In this document: positions 2,177 to 6,527 of the stretch, piece after piece
How the letters are laid out: each line of letters opens with the position of its first letter
Numbering within the stretch: the stretch's first letter is position 1
Source: Candidatus Acetothermia bacterium
GTDB lineage: Bacteria; Bipolaricaulota; Bipolaricaulia; RBG-16-55-9; JANLFV01
Reading direction: 5' to 3'
NCBI GenBank assembly: GCA_024653345.1
Contig: JANLFV010000015.1
Location: 1-32,270, forward strand
Length of the DNA stretch: 32,270 nucleotides
Notes under the pieces: model-generated
What the model saw: only the letters and a program-made list of their open reading frames with translations
What the model was told of the DNA's origin: nothing
Databases searched by the model: none
Translations under genes and position numbers: made by a program

Positions 2177-4675
2177 TTACTTCCTCAGCTCGGCTCCCAG
2201 CTCCTCGGCCAGCCGGGCCTCGATCTGTAAGCGGAGCCGGTCGGCCTCCTCGTCGGTGAGGGTCCGATCCTCGGCCTGGAGCCGGAGGCGGAAGGCCAGG
2301 CTCTTCTTCCCCTTTGGGATCGGCGGCCCTTGGTAAAGGTCGAAGAGGACCAGCTCCCGGAGGAGCTCGCCGCCCGCGGCCTTGATGGCCTGGGCCACCC
2401 TCTCGGCGGGGATGGCTTCATCGACCACGATCGCTAGGTCCCGCAGGACCGCGGGGAACTGCGGGAGGGGGCGGTAGCGCCCGACCGGTGTGGCCCGCGC
2501 GAGCGCGAGGATGGCCTCCAGGTCCAGCTCGGCCGCCAGGACCGGCCACTCCAGCTCGAGCTCGAAGGCCTCCTTCACCCGGGGGTGGAGCTCCCCGAGG
2601 AGGCCGACCTCCTCTCCTCCGATCAGGAGCTTGGCCGTCCGACCGGGATGGAAGCTCGGGTGCGGCCGGCTCGGCCGCTCGAAGCGGCCCTCGAGCCCGA
2701 GCCCCCGGAGGAGCTCCTCGATGATCCCCTTCAGGTCGAAGAAGCTCATCGCCCGTGGCTTCACATGCCAGGAGAGCCTCTCCCGCGGCCCGGCGAGGGC
2801 TATTCCCAGCCTGCGGGGCTCGCGCGGCCTCTGGCCCTTCCCGGCGGGCAAGTAGACCCGCCCGAGCTCGAAGATCGCCACCCGCTCGCGGTGCTTCAGG
2901 TTCTCCGCGACCGTCTCCAGCAGCCCCGGGAGGAGCAACCGGCGGAGGACCGACCGCTCTCGAGAGAGGGGATTGGCGATGTGGAGGTAGTCCTCGGGGC
3001 TGGAGTTCGGGTCGAGCTTGGCCCCGGCCTCGGGGCTCGTGAGGGAGTAGGTGATCACCTCGGAGAGGCCGCAGCTGACCAAGATCTCCCGGACTTGCTC
3101 CTCCAGTTCCAGCGTGCGGTCGCGATGCTGCGGCGGCAGGGGCTCGGCCATCAGGGTGGCGGGGATCTTATCGTAGCCGATGAGCCTTGCCACCTCCTCC
3201 ACGAGGTCGGCGGGGCAGGAGACATCGAGCCGGTGCCAGGGGACCTTCACCCGGATCGCCTCCCCCTGGGGATGGCAAGCGAACTCCAGCCGCTCCAAGA
3301 GCGCGATGATCTCATCCCGGGGGACCGCCAGCCCGAGGAGCCGCTCGACCTCGCGGGGGTCGAGTTCCAGCTCGACCTCCTTTTGCTTCACCGGGTAGAC
3401 ATCGACGATCCCGGAGGCGATCTCTCCGCCGGCCAGCTCCCGCATCAACTGGGCCGCCCGCTTGAGGGCCAGAGGGGCCAGCTCGGGCGGGACGCCCCTC
3501 CCGAACCGGGCCGCGGCCTCGCTCATCAATCTTAGGGCCTGGGCCGTCCGGCGGTTGTTGGTGCTGGAGAAGCTGGCCGACTCGATCAGGACATCCGCGG
3601 TCGAGGCGGTCACCTCGGTCTCCAGCCCGCCCATCACACCGGCGAGGGCGATCGGCCCCTCAGGGTCGGCGATGAGGAGCATCTCCTCTGTGAGCGCGCG
3701 CTCGACCCCGTCGAGCGTCACTATCCTCTCACCCGGCCGGGCCCGCCGGACGATGATCCTCTTCCCGGGACCATCAGGGCTGTGGAGCCGGCGGTAGTCG
3801 AAGGCGTGCAGAGGCTGGCCCCACTCGAGCATCACATAGTTGGTGATGTCGACGATGTTGTTGATCGGGCGCATCCCGGCCAGAGTGAGCCGCCTTCTCA
3901 TCCAGAAGGGGGAGGGGCCGACCTTCACCCCCCGGACCAGCGCGGCGGTATACCTTGCGCAGAGGTCGGGGTCCCAAATTTCCACTTCGACCTGACCGGA
4001 GATCCCCGGCCCGGTGGGGTGCCACTCGACCTCGGGGGTCTTGAACCTCTGCCCCGTGAGGGCGGCCACCTCCCTTGCCACGCCGATGATCGGGAAGCAC
4101 CGCGCGAGGTTCGGGGTGAGGTCAAGCTCGAGGACCACATCCTGCAAGAGCTCGGAGAGCGGTGTCCCGACCTTTAAGTCTTGCTCGAGTATCAGGACCC
4201 CACTGTGGTCGTCCGAGAGCCCTAGCTCCTTCTCCGAGCAGAGGACCACCTCGGAGCGGACCCCGCGGATGGCCGCGGCCTTGACCTTGACGGGCTTCGG
4301 CTCAGGACCATAGGCGTCGATGATCCTCGCCCCCGGCTCGGCCACGGCTACCTTCTGACCATGGTCGCCGACCCGGATATTGGGCGCGCCGGTGACCGAC
4401 TCCCTCGGCCCGCGGCCATAATCGACCACAGCGATGACCAGCTTATCAGCGTTCGGATGGGGCTTGACCTCCAGGACCTCCCCGATGTAGATCCCCTCCC
4501 AGTCGAGGGTGGCCCGGCCGCCTTCTTCATGCCCTCCTTCTCGGGCCCGAGCCGCAAGCCCGAGATACTCGATCTTGGCCACCTCCAGCCCCGCCAGGGT
4601 CAGCCGCTCCGCCAGCTCCTCGATATCCTCGGGGAGATCGACATACTCCCTCAGCCAGCTTAGGGGAACCCTCAT
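2177..4675 (-). CDS. pheT: Phenylalanine--tRNA ligase beta subunit
   Basis: This 832-residue protein is the beta subunit of the alpha2-beta2 cytosolic phenylalanyl-tRNA synthetase, and its length is normal. It begins MRVPLSWLREYV. In order it has an EMAP-type tRNA-binding fold (KPHPNADKLVI), the B3/B4 editing region (MRPINNIVDITNYVMLEWGQ, HAFD), a B5 region and a C-terminal anticodon-binding ferredoxin-fold domain (residues about 735-832, starting YRPLPQFPAVLRDLAIV). The start codon overlaps the pheS stop by 4 nt (ATGA), so translation is coupled. A longer open frame runs upstream through pheS but is only its shadow. Confidence 0.97.
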   Translation of the reverse strand: MRVPLSWLREYVDLPEDIEELAERLTLAGLEVAKIEYLGLAARAREGGHEEGGRATLDWEGIYIGEVLEVKPHPNADKLVIAVVDYGRGPRESVTGAPNIRVGDHGQKVAVAEPGARIIDAYGPEPKPVKVKAAAIRGVRSEVVLCSEKELGLSDDHSGVLILEQDLKVGTPLSELLQDVVLELDLTPNLARCFPIIGVAREVAALTGQRFKTPEVEWHPTGPGISGQVEVEIWDPDLCARYTAALVRGVKVGPSPFWMRRRLTLAGMRPINNIVDITNYVMLEWGQPLHAFDYRRLHSPDGPGKRIIVRRARPGERIVTLDGVERALTEEMLLIADPEGPIALAGVMGGLETEVTASTADVLIESASFSSTNNRRTAQALRLMSEAAARFGRGVPPELAPLALKRAAQLMRELAGGEIASGIVDVYPVKQKEVELELDPREVERLLGLAVPRDEIIALLERLEFACHPQGEAIRVKVPWHRLDVSCPADLVEEVARLIGYDKIPATLMAEPLPPQHRDRTLELEEQVREILVSCGLSEVITYSLTSPEAGAKLDPNSSPEDYLHIANPLSRERSVLRRLLLPGLLETVAENLKHRERVAIFELGRVYLPAGKGQRPREPRRLGIALAGPRERLSWHVKPRAMSFFDLKGIIEELLRGLGLEGRFERPSRPHPSFHPGRTAKLLIGGEEVGLLGELHPRVKEAFELELEWPVLAAELDLEAILALARATPVGRYRPLPQFPAVLRDLAIVVDEAIPAERVAQAIKAAGGELLRELVLFDLYQGPPIPKGKKSLAFRLRLQAEDRTLTDEEADRLRLQIEARLAEELGAELRK

Positions 4676-5730
4676 CTTGGCCCTCCTGAGAACTGCTCCA
4701 GGAACCGCAGGTCGTTCGCGAAGAAGAGCCGGATGTCGTCGATGTTGTATTTCAGCATTAATATCCGCTCCGGCCCCATCCCGAAGGCGAAGCCCGTGAA
4801 CTCTTGGGGGTCGTAGCCCCCATTCCGCAGGACTTGGGGATGGACCATCCCTGCCCCGAGGATCTCGACCCAGCCGGTGTGTTTGCAGACCCGGCAGCCC
4901 CGCCCGCCGCAGAGGATGCAGTCCATGTCCATCTCCAGGCTCGGCTCGGTGAAGGGGAAGTAGCTCGCGCGGAAGCGGAATCTTCTTCCCTCGCCGAACA
5001 TCTGGTGGGCGAACTCGGTGAGGACCCCCTTGAGGTCGGCCATCGTGATCTTCCTCCCGATCGCCAGCCCCTCGACCTGGTGGAACATCATCTCCGAGCG
5101 GGCCGTCACCTGCTCGTAGCGGTAGCACTTCCCGGGGAGGATCGCCCGGATCGGCTCGGGGGCGAATTTGCGCATCACATGGATCTGCCCGGGCGAGGTA
5201 TGGGTCCGCAGAAGGAGCCCCGGCTCGACCAGGTAGAAGGTGCTCCACATGTCCCTTGCGGGGTGGTCCGGGGGGATGTTCAGCAACTGGAAGTTATGCT
5301 CGTCGGTCTCGATCTCCGGGCTCTCGAAGACCTGGAACCCCATCCCCGAGAAGATCCTGTAGATCTCGCGCAGGACCTGCGTCGAGGGGTGGAGCCTCCC
5401 TAAGGCCACCGGCCTCCCCGGGAGGGTCACATCGACCGCCTCCTCCTGGAGCCTCCTCTCGATCGTCTCAGCCTTGAGGGCCGCGAGCCGCTGCTCCAGC
5501 GCCTCTTGGAACTGATCTTTCAGGGTATTGATCAACTTGCCCGCCTCGGGGCGGGCCTCCGGTGGGAGTTGGGGCAAGAGCTGAAATAGCTCCGTGATCT
5601 TGCCCTTTCGCCCCAGCAGGGCCACGCGGACTGCCTCGCACTCTTCGAGAGAGCCGGCTTGTTCCAAGCGCTCCCGGCCCTCTTCCGCGAGGGCCTTCAC
5701 TTGCTGCTCGAGCTCTTCAATCTGGACCAT
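4672..5730 (-). CDS. pheS: Phenylalanine--tRNA ligase alpha subunit
   Basis: This 352-residue protein is the catalytic subunit of phenylalanyl-tRNA synthetase. It has an N-terminal coiled-coil arm that binds tRNA, then the class II core: HPARDMWSTFYL, LLRTHTSPGQ, YRYEQVTARSEMMFHQVEGL, the zinc-like CxxC pairs CILCGGRGCRVC, and a final GMGPERILML. In the HPAR motif the usual D-T after the spacer is S-T. I start at MVQIEELEQQ (5730), which fits the family. An in-frame ATG at 5784 would add 18 atypical residues. The gene lies behind a leader peptide and hairpin that suggest control by tRNA-Phe charging. Confidence 0.96.
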   Translation of the reverse strand: MVQIEELEQQVKALAEEGRERLEQAGSLEECEAVRVALLGRKGKITELFQLLPQLPPEARPEAGKLINTLKDQFQEALEQRLAALKAETIERRLQEEAVDVTLPGRPVALGRLHPSTQVLREIYRIFSGMGFQVFESPEIETDEHNFQLLNIPPDHPARDMWSTFYLVEPGLLLRTHTSPGQIHVMRKFAPEPIRAILPGKCYRYEQVTARSEMMFHQVEGLAIGRKITMADLKGVLTEFAHQMFGEGRRFRFRASYFPFTEPSLEMDMDCILCGGRGCRVCKHTGWVEILGAGMVHPQVLRNGGYDPQEFTGFAFGMGPERILMLKYNIDDIRLFFANDLRFLEQFSGGPR

Positions 5731-5820
5731 GGTGGACCTTTCTACAGAAGATTCCTGGCTGTGCCAAATGGAACTCTCGACCACGAACTCCGTCAGGATT
5801 GCAATTGGGAAGAGGAATTC

Positions 5821-5840
5821 TTGCCCCCCTCAGGGGGCAA
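5821..5840 (-). promoter_or_regulatory. Leader hairpin, candidate pheST attenuator
   Basis: An 8-bp perfect stem (TTGCCCCC with GGGGGCAA) around a 4-nt loop sits in the pheS leader. Its 5' arm covers the third Phe codon and the Ala and Pro codons of the leader peptide, and the leader stop TGA begins the loop. A ribosome at the Phe codons or at the stop would therefore block the hairpin. The downstream tract is only moderately pyrimidine-rich, without a clean U-run, so intrinsic termination is plausible but not certain. Confidence 0.6.
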
Positions 5841-5892
5841 AGAAGAACCGCAGACCGGTCGATCCGAGCAGCTTCGCTCTACTCTTCGGCAT
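5830..5892 (-). CDS. Phe-rich leader peptide of pheST (PheM-like)
   Basis: A 20-codon open frame begins with ATG at 5892, about 4 nt after the predicted transcript start. It ends with three consecutive Phe codons (TTC TTC TTT), Ala and Pro before TGA. The peptide starts MPKSRAKLLG and ends RFFFAP. In Escherichia coli, pheST is controlled by transcription attenuation through the Phe-rich PheM leader, and the arrangement here is the same: promoter, short Phe-run peptide, GC-rich hairpin overlapping the stop, then pheS. The near-leaderless start is unusual. Translation is inferred. Confidence 0.65.
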   Translation of the reverse strand: MPKSRAKLLGSTGLRFFFAP

Positions 5893-5902
5893 CTCAAACG
5901 TT

Positions 5903-5931
5903 AGCATAGCATGCCGCCGTCGGGATGTCAA
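5903..5931 (-). promoter_or_regulatory. Sigma-70-type promoter of the pheST leader
   Basis: Read on the minus strand: TTGACA at 5931-5926, a 17-nt spacer, and TATGCT at 5908-5903, with an extended -10 TGC just before it. The predicted transcript start is near 5896, almost at the leader ATG. Confidence 0.8.
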
Positions 5932-5958
5932 TCTCCCCCGTGAGCGGTTTTGACATCC
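5923..5958. promoter_or_regulatory. 9-bp inverted repeat joining two divergent -35 boxes
   Basis: GGATGTCAA at 5923-5931 and TTGACATCC at 5950-5958 are perfect inverted copies 18 nt apart. Each arm contains the -35 hexamer of one divergent promoter, pheS leftward and the Tat-signal protein rightward. The extra GGA/TCC match outside the hexamers makes the symmetry better than two TTGACA boxes alone would give. A regulator bound here could block both promoters, but the match may also be coincidence. Confidence 0.5.
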
Positions 5959-6032: not shown

Positions 6033-6050
6033 GGAATGGAGGTAGAAGAG

Positions 6051-6527
6051 ATGGCCCATGAGCAGGGGCATGGCCCCAAAGCGGACAGGCGGAAGTTCCT
6101 CCAGTATCTGGGACTGGGCGGGCTGGCAGGCCTAGTGGCAGCGTTGACCAGGTCCGGCCATGCCAAGGCCTCCCCGGAGGAGACGATCCAGGCGACCCGA
6201 CTGGCAGCCTATTACAATACGACCTCGGACTGGATGGCTTGGGTGAGCGTCTCGAATGACGGGTCGGAGCCTCAGCAGGTGAGCGTGGAAGTCTACAATC
6301 TGGCCGGGCTGCTGGTTTATCAAACGAGCGCCACACTCAGCCCCTTCCAGACCTCCGGGATCGCCCTGGAGACCCTCGGCGAGGTCAAGGGTAAGCAGGG
6401 GCTTGTGGTGGTGATCCCTGAGGAGAACAAGCGAGTGGCCGCGTTCCTCCTGCAGAGGCGGGCGAGCCAGCCGGACTACACAGCCGGGATGATCGCGCTC
6501 AGCCCGACCTCGTTCGTCTCCAGCTAG
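6051..6527 (+). CDS. Small Tat-signal exported protein of unknown function
   Basis: The 158-residue product carries a twin-arginine signal: DRRKFL at residues 12-17, a Gly/Leu-rich hydrophobic stretch, and a likely cleavage after AKA near residue 40. The mature part, about 118 residues, is beta-rich with no cysteine (YYNTTSDWMAWVSVSN, QQVSVEVYNLAGLLVYQ) and looks like an all-beta adhesive or capping fold; I do not recognise the family. I start at MAHEQG because GGAGGTAG lies at the right distance. The ATG 15 nt upstream has GAGGA almost touching it. Folded-state export would use the Tat system, for which tatA is present at about 20 kb. It ends at a strong terminator. Confidence 0.7.
   Translation: MAHEQGHGPKADRRKFLQYLGLGGLAGLVAALTRSGHAKASPEETIQATRLAAYYNTTSDWMAWVSVSNDGSEPQQVSVEVYNLAGLLVYQTSATLSPFQTSGIALETLGEVKGKQGLVVVIPEENKRVAAFLLQRRASQPDYTAGMIALSPTSFVSS

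Follow-up and report, generated by a model that had tools for sequence, protein, structure and literature searches.

A putative minimal leader-peptide attenuator of pheST in an Acetothermia bacterium and its relatives

In E. coli, the leader peptide gene pheM lies in the thrS-infC-rpmI-rplT-pheM-pheST region, and its function involves alternative RNA structures and a downstream terminator. Attenuation of pheST by a leader peptide is classical for the gamma-proteobacteria, and a survey of the Actinobacteria from 2005 found no such element for the phenylalanine genes there (PMC1262725). A regulatory codon run that overlaps a single candidate terminator hairpin is described for the actinobacterial ilvB leaders, which sense branched-chain amino acids and possess poly-U tails (PMC1262725). 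Their mechanism is disputed in Streptomyces, and an anti-terminator/terminator attenuation is now proposed for ilvB1 of M. tuberculosis (PMC13236596). In mycobacteria, leaderless polycysteine ORFs are described as cysteine-responsive attenuators in the work of Canestrari et al. 2020, as cited in PMC13236596, and the mycobacterial cys leaders are reported to be devoid of a conserved terminator hairpin (PMC1262725). A further type of sensor is found in Chloroflexota, in which pheS can be preceded by a T-box (RF00230), an RNA of around 200 nt that binds tRNA directly and does not contain a leader peptide.

The window analysed here is a stretch of 32,270 nucleotides from a Candidatus Acetothermia bacterium (contig JANLFV010000015.1). 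It encodes PheRS alpha (pheS, 4672..5730, minus strand; TIGR00468, 315 bits, over the cut-off) and PheRS beta (pheT, 2177..4675, minus strand; TIGR00472, 703 bits), and the start of pheT overlaps the stop codon of pheS. Upstream of pheS, the minus strand carries a promoter-like sequence, P1 (5903..5931), which consists of TTGACA (5931-5926), a spacer of 17 nt and TATGCT (5908-5903), the latter being preceded by TG and thereby forming an extended -10 element. Only two sigma-70-like matches are present in 900 nt, one of which is P1, while shuffled sequences give 0.1. The start site of P1 is predicted to be a G at position 5895, 3 nt 5' of the ATG of a short ORF (5830..5892, minus strand), which begins with ATG at 5892, 10 nt past the -10 box, and would thus be near-leaderless. 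The ORF comprises 20 codons, encodes MPKSRAKLLGSTGLRFFFAP and ends with TGA at 5832-5830; re-reading of the sequence gave precisely the frame proposed in a first-pass annotation of this DNA, with TTC TTC TTT, Ala, Pro and stop at its end. The three putatively regulatory Phe codons occupy positions 5839..5847.

A hairpin, TTTGCCCCC-TGAG-GGGGGCAAG (5820..5841, minus strand), begins with the last of these Phe codons, and its loop opens with the stop codon, which agrees with the overlap noted in the first-pass annotation. It contains 8 base pairs and a 4-nt loop, has a predicted energy of -15.5 kcal/mol at 37 °C and a predicted pairing probability of 1.0 in the context of the leader. Taken as a whole, the leader has an ordinary folding energy (z -0.39); what stands out is the local hairpin, together with its conservation, and not a global structure. 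The hairpin is followed by a pyrimidine-rich tail, AATTCCTCTTCCCA (5806..5819, minus strand), and by the remaining spacer to pheS (5731..5805, minus strand), which contains a Shine-Dalgarno-like AGAAAGG near 5740; the stop codon in the hairpin loop lies 99 nt from the pheS start. A weak second promoter, TTGGCA...TAGAAA, is possibly present in this spacer.

Like the pheM-pheST arrangement of E. coli, the locus has, immediately before pheST, a leader peptide that contains a Phe run and for which a response to charged tRNAPhe would be expected. However, the element described here has its own promoter and a near-leaderless ORF, and it forms one hairpin containing the last Phe codon and the stop codon, with no predicted antiterminator. 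The earlier designation as PheM-type attenuation holds only as an analogy; the antiterminator/terminator pair of E. coli has no counterpart in the leaders compared below, all six of which are dominated by a single hairpin. The element can be called analogous to pheM; with leaders this short, homology is not demonstrable. As far as the cited account of the mycobacterial polycysteine ORFs goes, these share with the element the short ORF, predicted to be near-leaderless here, and the run of codons for the sensed residue in front of an operon; they differ in that they sense cysteine, precede biosynthetic operons and belong to another phylum. The ilvB leaders resemble the element in the overlap of regulatory codons and hairpin, but not in the poly-U tail and the amino acids sensed.

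The upstream region of pheS was compared among relatives, of which 52 of 60 genomes had a pheS match; regions were read at 30 loci and at additional related pheS loci. The element was found upstream of pheS in six genomes, namely that of the window (G000) and five others, which belong to three families of one order, f1 (the family of the window), f3 and f5, and whose PheS proteins are around 56 to 88% identical to that of the window. Promoter-like sequence, ORF, Phe codons and hairpin are conserved in all of them. The leaders of the five relatives are MQATETMAMLFFFAP in G001, a genome of the same genus, MTSQKLSSGICERTYRLARSFLPFFAP in G008, MALRVLTRKEQRWSAQSFLPFFAP in G012, MQHLKYLVLSSTAQGFGETHFFFAP in G003 and MKWLKASPLRMVAHHFLFAPSGV in G005. 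All six share the promoter geometry, an ATG located 9 to 10 nt past the -10 box, a purine 3 nt before the ATG, an open frame that runs into the Phe codons, and, shortly before Ala-Pro, at least two Phe codons. The shared spacing and the purine make a common transcription start 3 nt before the AUG the natural prediction, which would place the 5' end at or near the start codon in each genome. The core common to all six consists of TTTGCCCC, a loop of 3 to 6 nt and GGGGYA, and the distance from the start of the element to that of pheS is kept at 94 to 121 nt although the spacer sequence diverges. The N-terminal residues of the leaders show no visible similarity between families, whereas the Phe-rich Phe-Ala-Pro end is retained. 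The length difference between the leaders of G000 and G001, 15 nt, preserves the reading frame; the Phe end is intact and the 3' end nearly unchanged. The Phe run and the hairpin are the most conserved part of the region across six genomes and three families and do not vary freely. Apart from one change of G-C to G-U, the stem pairs are invariant, and with so little variation no independent support can come from covariation. No element is present upstream of pheS in G006 (f3) and G002 (f2), and it is thus dispensable in some lineages; as G006 seems, when read by eye, to share the upstream gene of G012, its lack of the leader is probably due to a loss. A TACAAT box lies around 25 nt before pheS in the loci L004, L006 and L007 (G008, G012 and G003; family f3) and farther upstream of pheS in G006. 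The box near pheS may constitute a second, unregulated promoter between the attenuator and pheS, and in view of it a transcription start downstream of 5830, the second refuting condition of the first-pass annotation, is conceivable.

To estimate how often such an arrangement arises by chance, a 225.5-kb sample of the same genome was searched on both strands. Thirteen short ORFs lie 8 to 11 nt past a promoter-like site in this sample. Of these, the pheS leader scores highest for its promoter and is the only one that combines a repeated-codon end with a GC hairpin. A covariance model of the six sites gave E values below 0.001 at these six sites only, all upstream of pheS, among 100 genomes of the phylum. 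Weak matches in G024, G058 and G086 (E above 0.004) were rejected, as they lie in coding-like sequence on other contigs, away from pheS. Since this first model included the window, family f1 was left out of a second one. In each of the two genomes of the genus, the top match of this second model was the pheS site, with E values of 0.0018 in G000 and 8e-7 in G001, the next-best matches having E values of 0.33 and 0.67, respectively. The element was not found in 47 genomes with a related pheS, mostly Chloroflexota, nor in around 300 further Chloroflexota, the latter being a weak negative as few candidates were scored per genome. Nothing relevant was matched in Rfam by the window at gathering thresholds or by the leader at a relaxed threshold, and no convincing case of a similar leader was seen at trpS/tyrS, HMGL-like or chorismate-binding genes of the same genomes; the HMGL-like and chorismate-binding families have no matches in G000 and G001. 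A full-text search covering part of the literature retrieved no report of the element in this lineage. Taken together, the conserved leader is well supported and its function as an attenuator is moderately supported.

A short ORF with Phe codons before pheST, as expected for leader-peptide attenuators in general, is seen in the sequences of six genomes, and a Phe-responsive attenuation is strongly suggested. The element is most likely a case of leader-peptide attenuation in a new layout with sensing of Phe-tRNAPhe, a reading that is supported by its conservation in the lineage, and it probably acts as a ribosome-mediated attenuator of pheST with a minimal design that senses charged tRNAPhe. 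We infer the start site, translation, stalling, termination and the direction of the response as follows. Transcription from P1 would start around 3 nt before the leader AUG, so that a ribosome could translate immediately and close behind the RNA polymerase. When Phe-tRNA is sufficient, the ribosome would complete the 20-codon peptide and depart, the hairpin would form just behind the polymerase and stop, or help to stop, transcription before pheS, thereby keeping pheST off. When Phe-tRNA is scarce, the ribosome would stall on the Phe codons and physically mask the 5' arm of the hairpin; the hairpin would then not form and pheST would be transcribed. The stalled ribosome would thereby replace the antiterminator, rendering an alternative RNA hairpin unnecessary.

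This scheme can be followed on the geometry of the leaders. According to the established toeprint geometry, a ribosome covers 15 nt downstream of the first base of the P-site. With this cover, a ribosome held up at the conserved Phe codons by a lack of Phe-tRNA is modelled to mask between 5 nt and all of the 5' arm, and the stall position would thus decide on hairpin formation, as in other leader-peptide attenuators. For transcripts that end 45 nt past the element's start, the predicted hairpin probability is at least 0.98 for all six leaders, and no competing antiterminator structure is predicted in any of them. In the same model, the hairpin is likewise covered in full when the ribosome sits at the stop codon, and repression would therefore need a quick release of the ribosome or a pause of the polymerase.

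The Phe-Ala-Pro-stop end could also be taken for an arrest peptide similar to TnaC, with a Pro at the stop codon and a ligand-dependent stall at termination in place of a counter of codons. Such a peptide would account for Ala-Pro being immediately before the stop codon in five of the six leaders. However, Ala-Pro is equally explained by GCC CCC, which is also the 5' arm of the hairpin; furthermore, the G005 leader runs on as FAPSGV before its stop codon and retains the hairpin, and there is little sense in free Phe as an inducer of its own synthetase. We consider an arrest peptide highly improbable.

Of the general features of an attenuator, the terminator would be represented by the hairpin, the U-tract of which is poor. 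The remark in the first-pass annotation that a clean U-run is missing is correct, given the T-poor tail in the window, of which the stretch AATTCCTCTT is the same in G001. The six leaders contain 2 to 5 T within 9 nt after the stem, with G012 being the best (TTTTCCATC) and G005 the worst, with only 2. Because of these weak U-tracts, intrinsic termination is doubtful, at least in G005. It is therefore conceivable that the leader senses Phe-tRNA in the same manner and that the hairpin acts as a pause or Rho-assisted signal: once the ribosome has left, Rho would terminate transcription within the untranslated, pyrimidine-rich spacer of around 90 nt, which stalling at the Phe codons would prevent. 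Consistent with this, five of the six genomes have a Rho match over the cut-off and G001 has a partial one, and the maintained distance of 94 to 121 nt between element and pheS in spite of the divergent spacer would fit as well. However, a stalled ribosome would mask the hairpin only and not the spacer, and it is not obvious how Rho would be kept off. Moreover, a hairpin-level survey of the genome sample revealed that other strong hairpins of this GC-rich genome have likewise pyrimidine-rich, T-poor tails, for instance CCTTCCTATTCTG. A tail of this type is not unusual among candidate terminators here, and the absent U-run thus neither excludes nor supports termination at 5820-5806. We regard the involvement of Rho or a pause as unlikely. 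Several near-identical GC hairpins, such as GCCCCGAGGCTCACTGAGCCTCGGGGC, were also seen within one 20-kb stretch of the same genome (L128, the first 20 kb of contig C9); they are possibly repeated terminators or a repeat family.

The poor U-tracts and the location of the leader, which is predicted to form the very 5' end of the transcript, would also suit a post-transcriptional mode of action, in which a stalled ribosome shields the 5' end of the mRNA or alters the folding around the pheS start, thereby controlling translation or mRNA stability. The leaderless polycysteine ORFs of mycobacteria offer a precedent, as far as they are portrayed in the citing work (Canestrari 2020, cited in PMC13236596). 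Yet the global folding of the leader is ordinary, as stated above, and the spacer, as the required pairing partner of the pheS start, lacks conservation across families; control after transcription is accordingly improbable.

In a PheS tree, the families f1, f2, f3 and f5 of this order are located at the base of the Chloroflexota PheS clade, and the PheS proteins of f4 and of the other members of the class that were sampled are placed away from them. The simplest reading is a likely transfer of the PheRS gene, in one direction or the other. Among named records, the nearest is a Candidatus Acetothermia MAG, whose PheS shares 88% identity with that of the window. The Chloroflexota PheS proteins are around 56 to 64% identical in the loci tested, and 12 of the tested Chloroflexota loci carry a T-box upstream of pheS; neither the window nor any of L002-L008 matched RF00230 in the same searches. 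T-box and element would serve the same gene and respond to the same signal, the scarcity of charged tRNAPhe; however, they differ in the means of sensing, and the T-box is absent from the carriers of the element. It is tempting to speculate that the element is a one-hairpin switch with a leaderless AUG, in which the ribosome is the antiterminator and the hairpin may act without a U-tract, and that it replaced the T-box in sensing tRNAPhe for pheST as some Bipolaricaulota/Acetothermia-related lineages gained a Chloroflexota-type PheRS, or afterwards. This wider scenario is conceivable but rather doubtful. As the closest outside relatives often use a pheS T-box, the locus would offer a case of one tRNA sensor exchanged for another. 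With an attenuator at this locus, a deep-branching uncultured lineage would join those in which a leader peptide controls pheST, in perhaps the simplest layout, a promoter, around 20 codons and one hairpin, and with around 90 nt the element is small enough for direct in vitro work. Prephenate dehydratase has no match in G000 (92% complete) or G001 and is matched in G008, G012, G005 and G006. Based on this one enzyme family, the Phe supply of G000 and G001 is probably external; with Phe probably taken up by G000, charging of tRNAPhe would be a sensible signal.

Opposite P1, a divergent promoter is seen on the plus strand (TTGACA 5950 to TACACT 5978). An inverted repeat, GGATGTCAA ... TTGACATCC (5923-5958), spans the -35 boxes of both promoters and is also kept in G001; it could be a shared operator. 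No NCBIfam family matches the divergent gene (6036-6527, plus strand), which has an apparent twin-arginine-like signal, DRRKFLQYLGLGGLAG, and a start similar to that of this gene is also seen upstream of pheS in G001.
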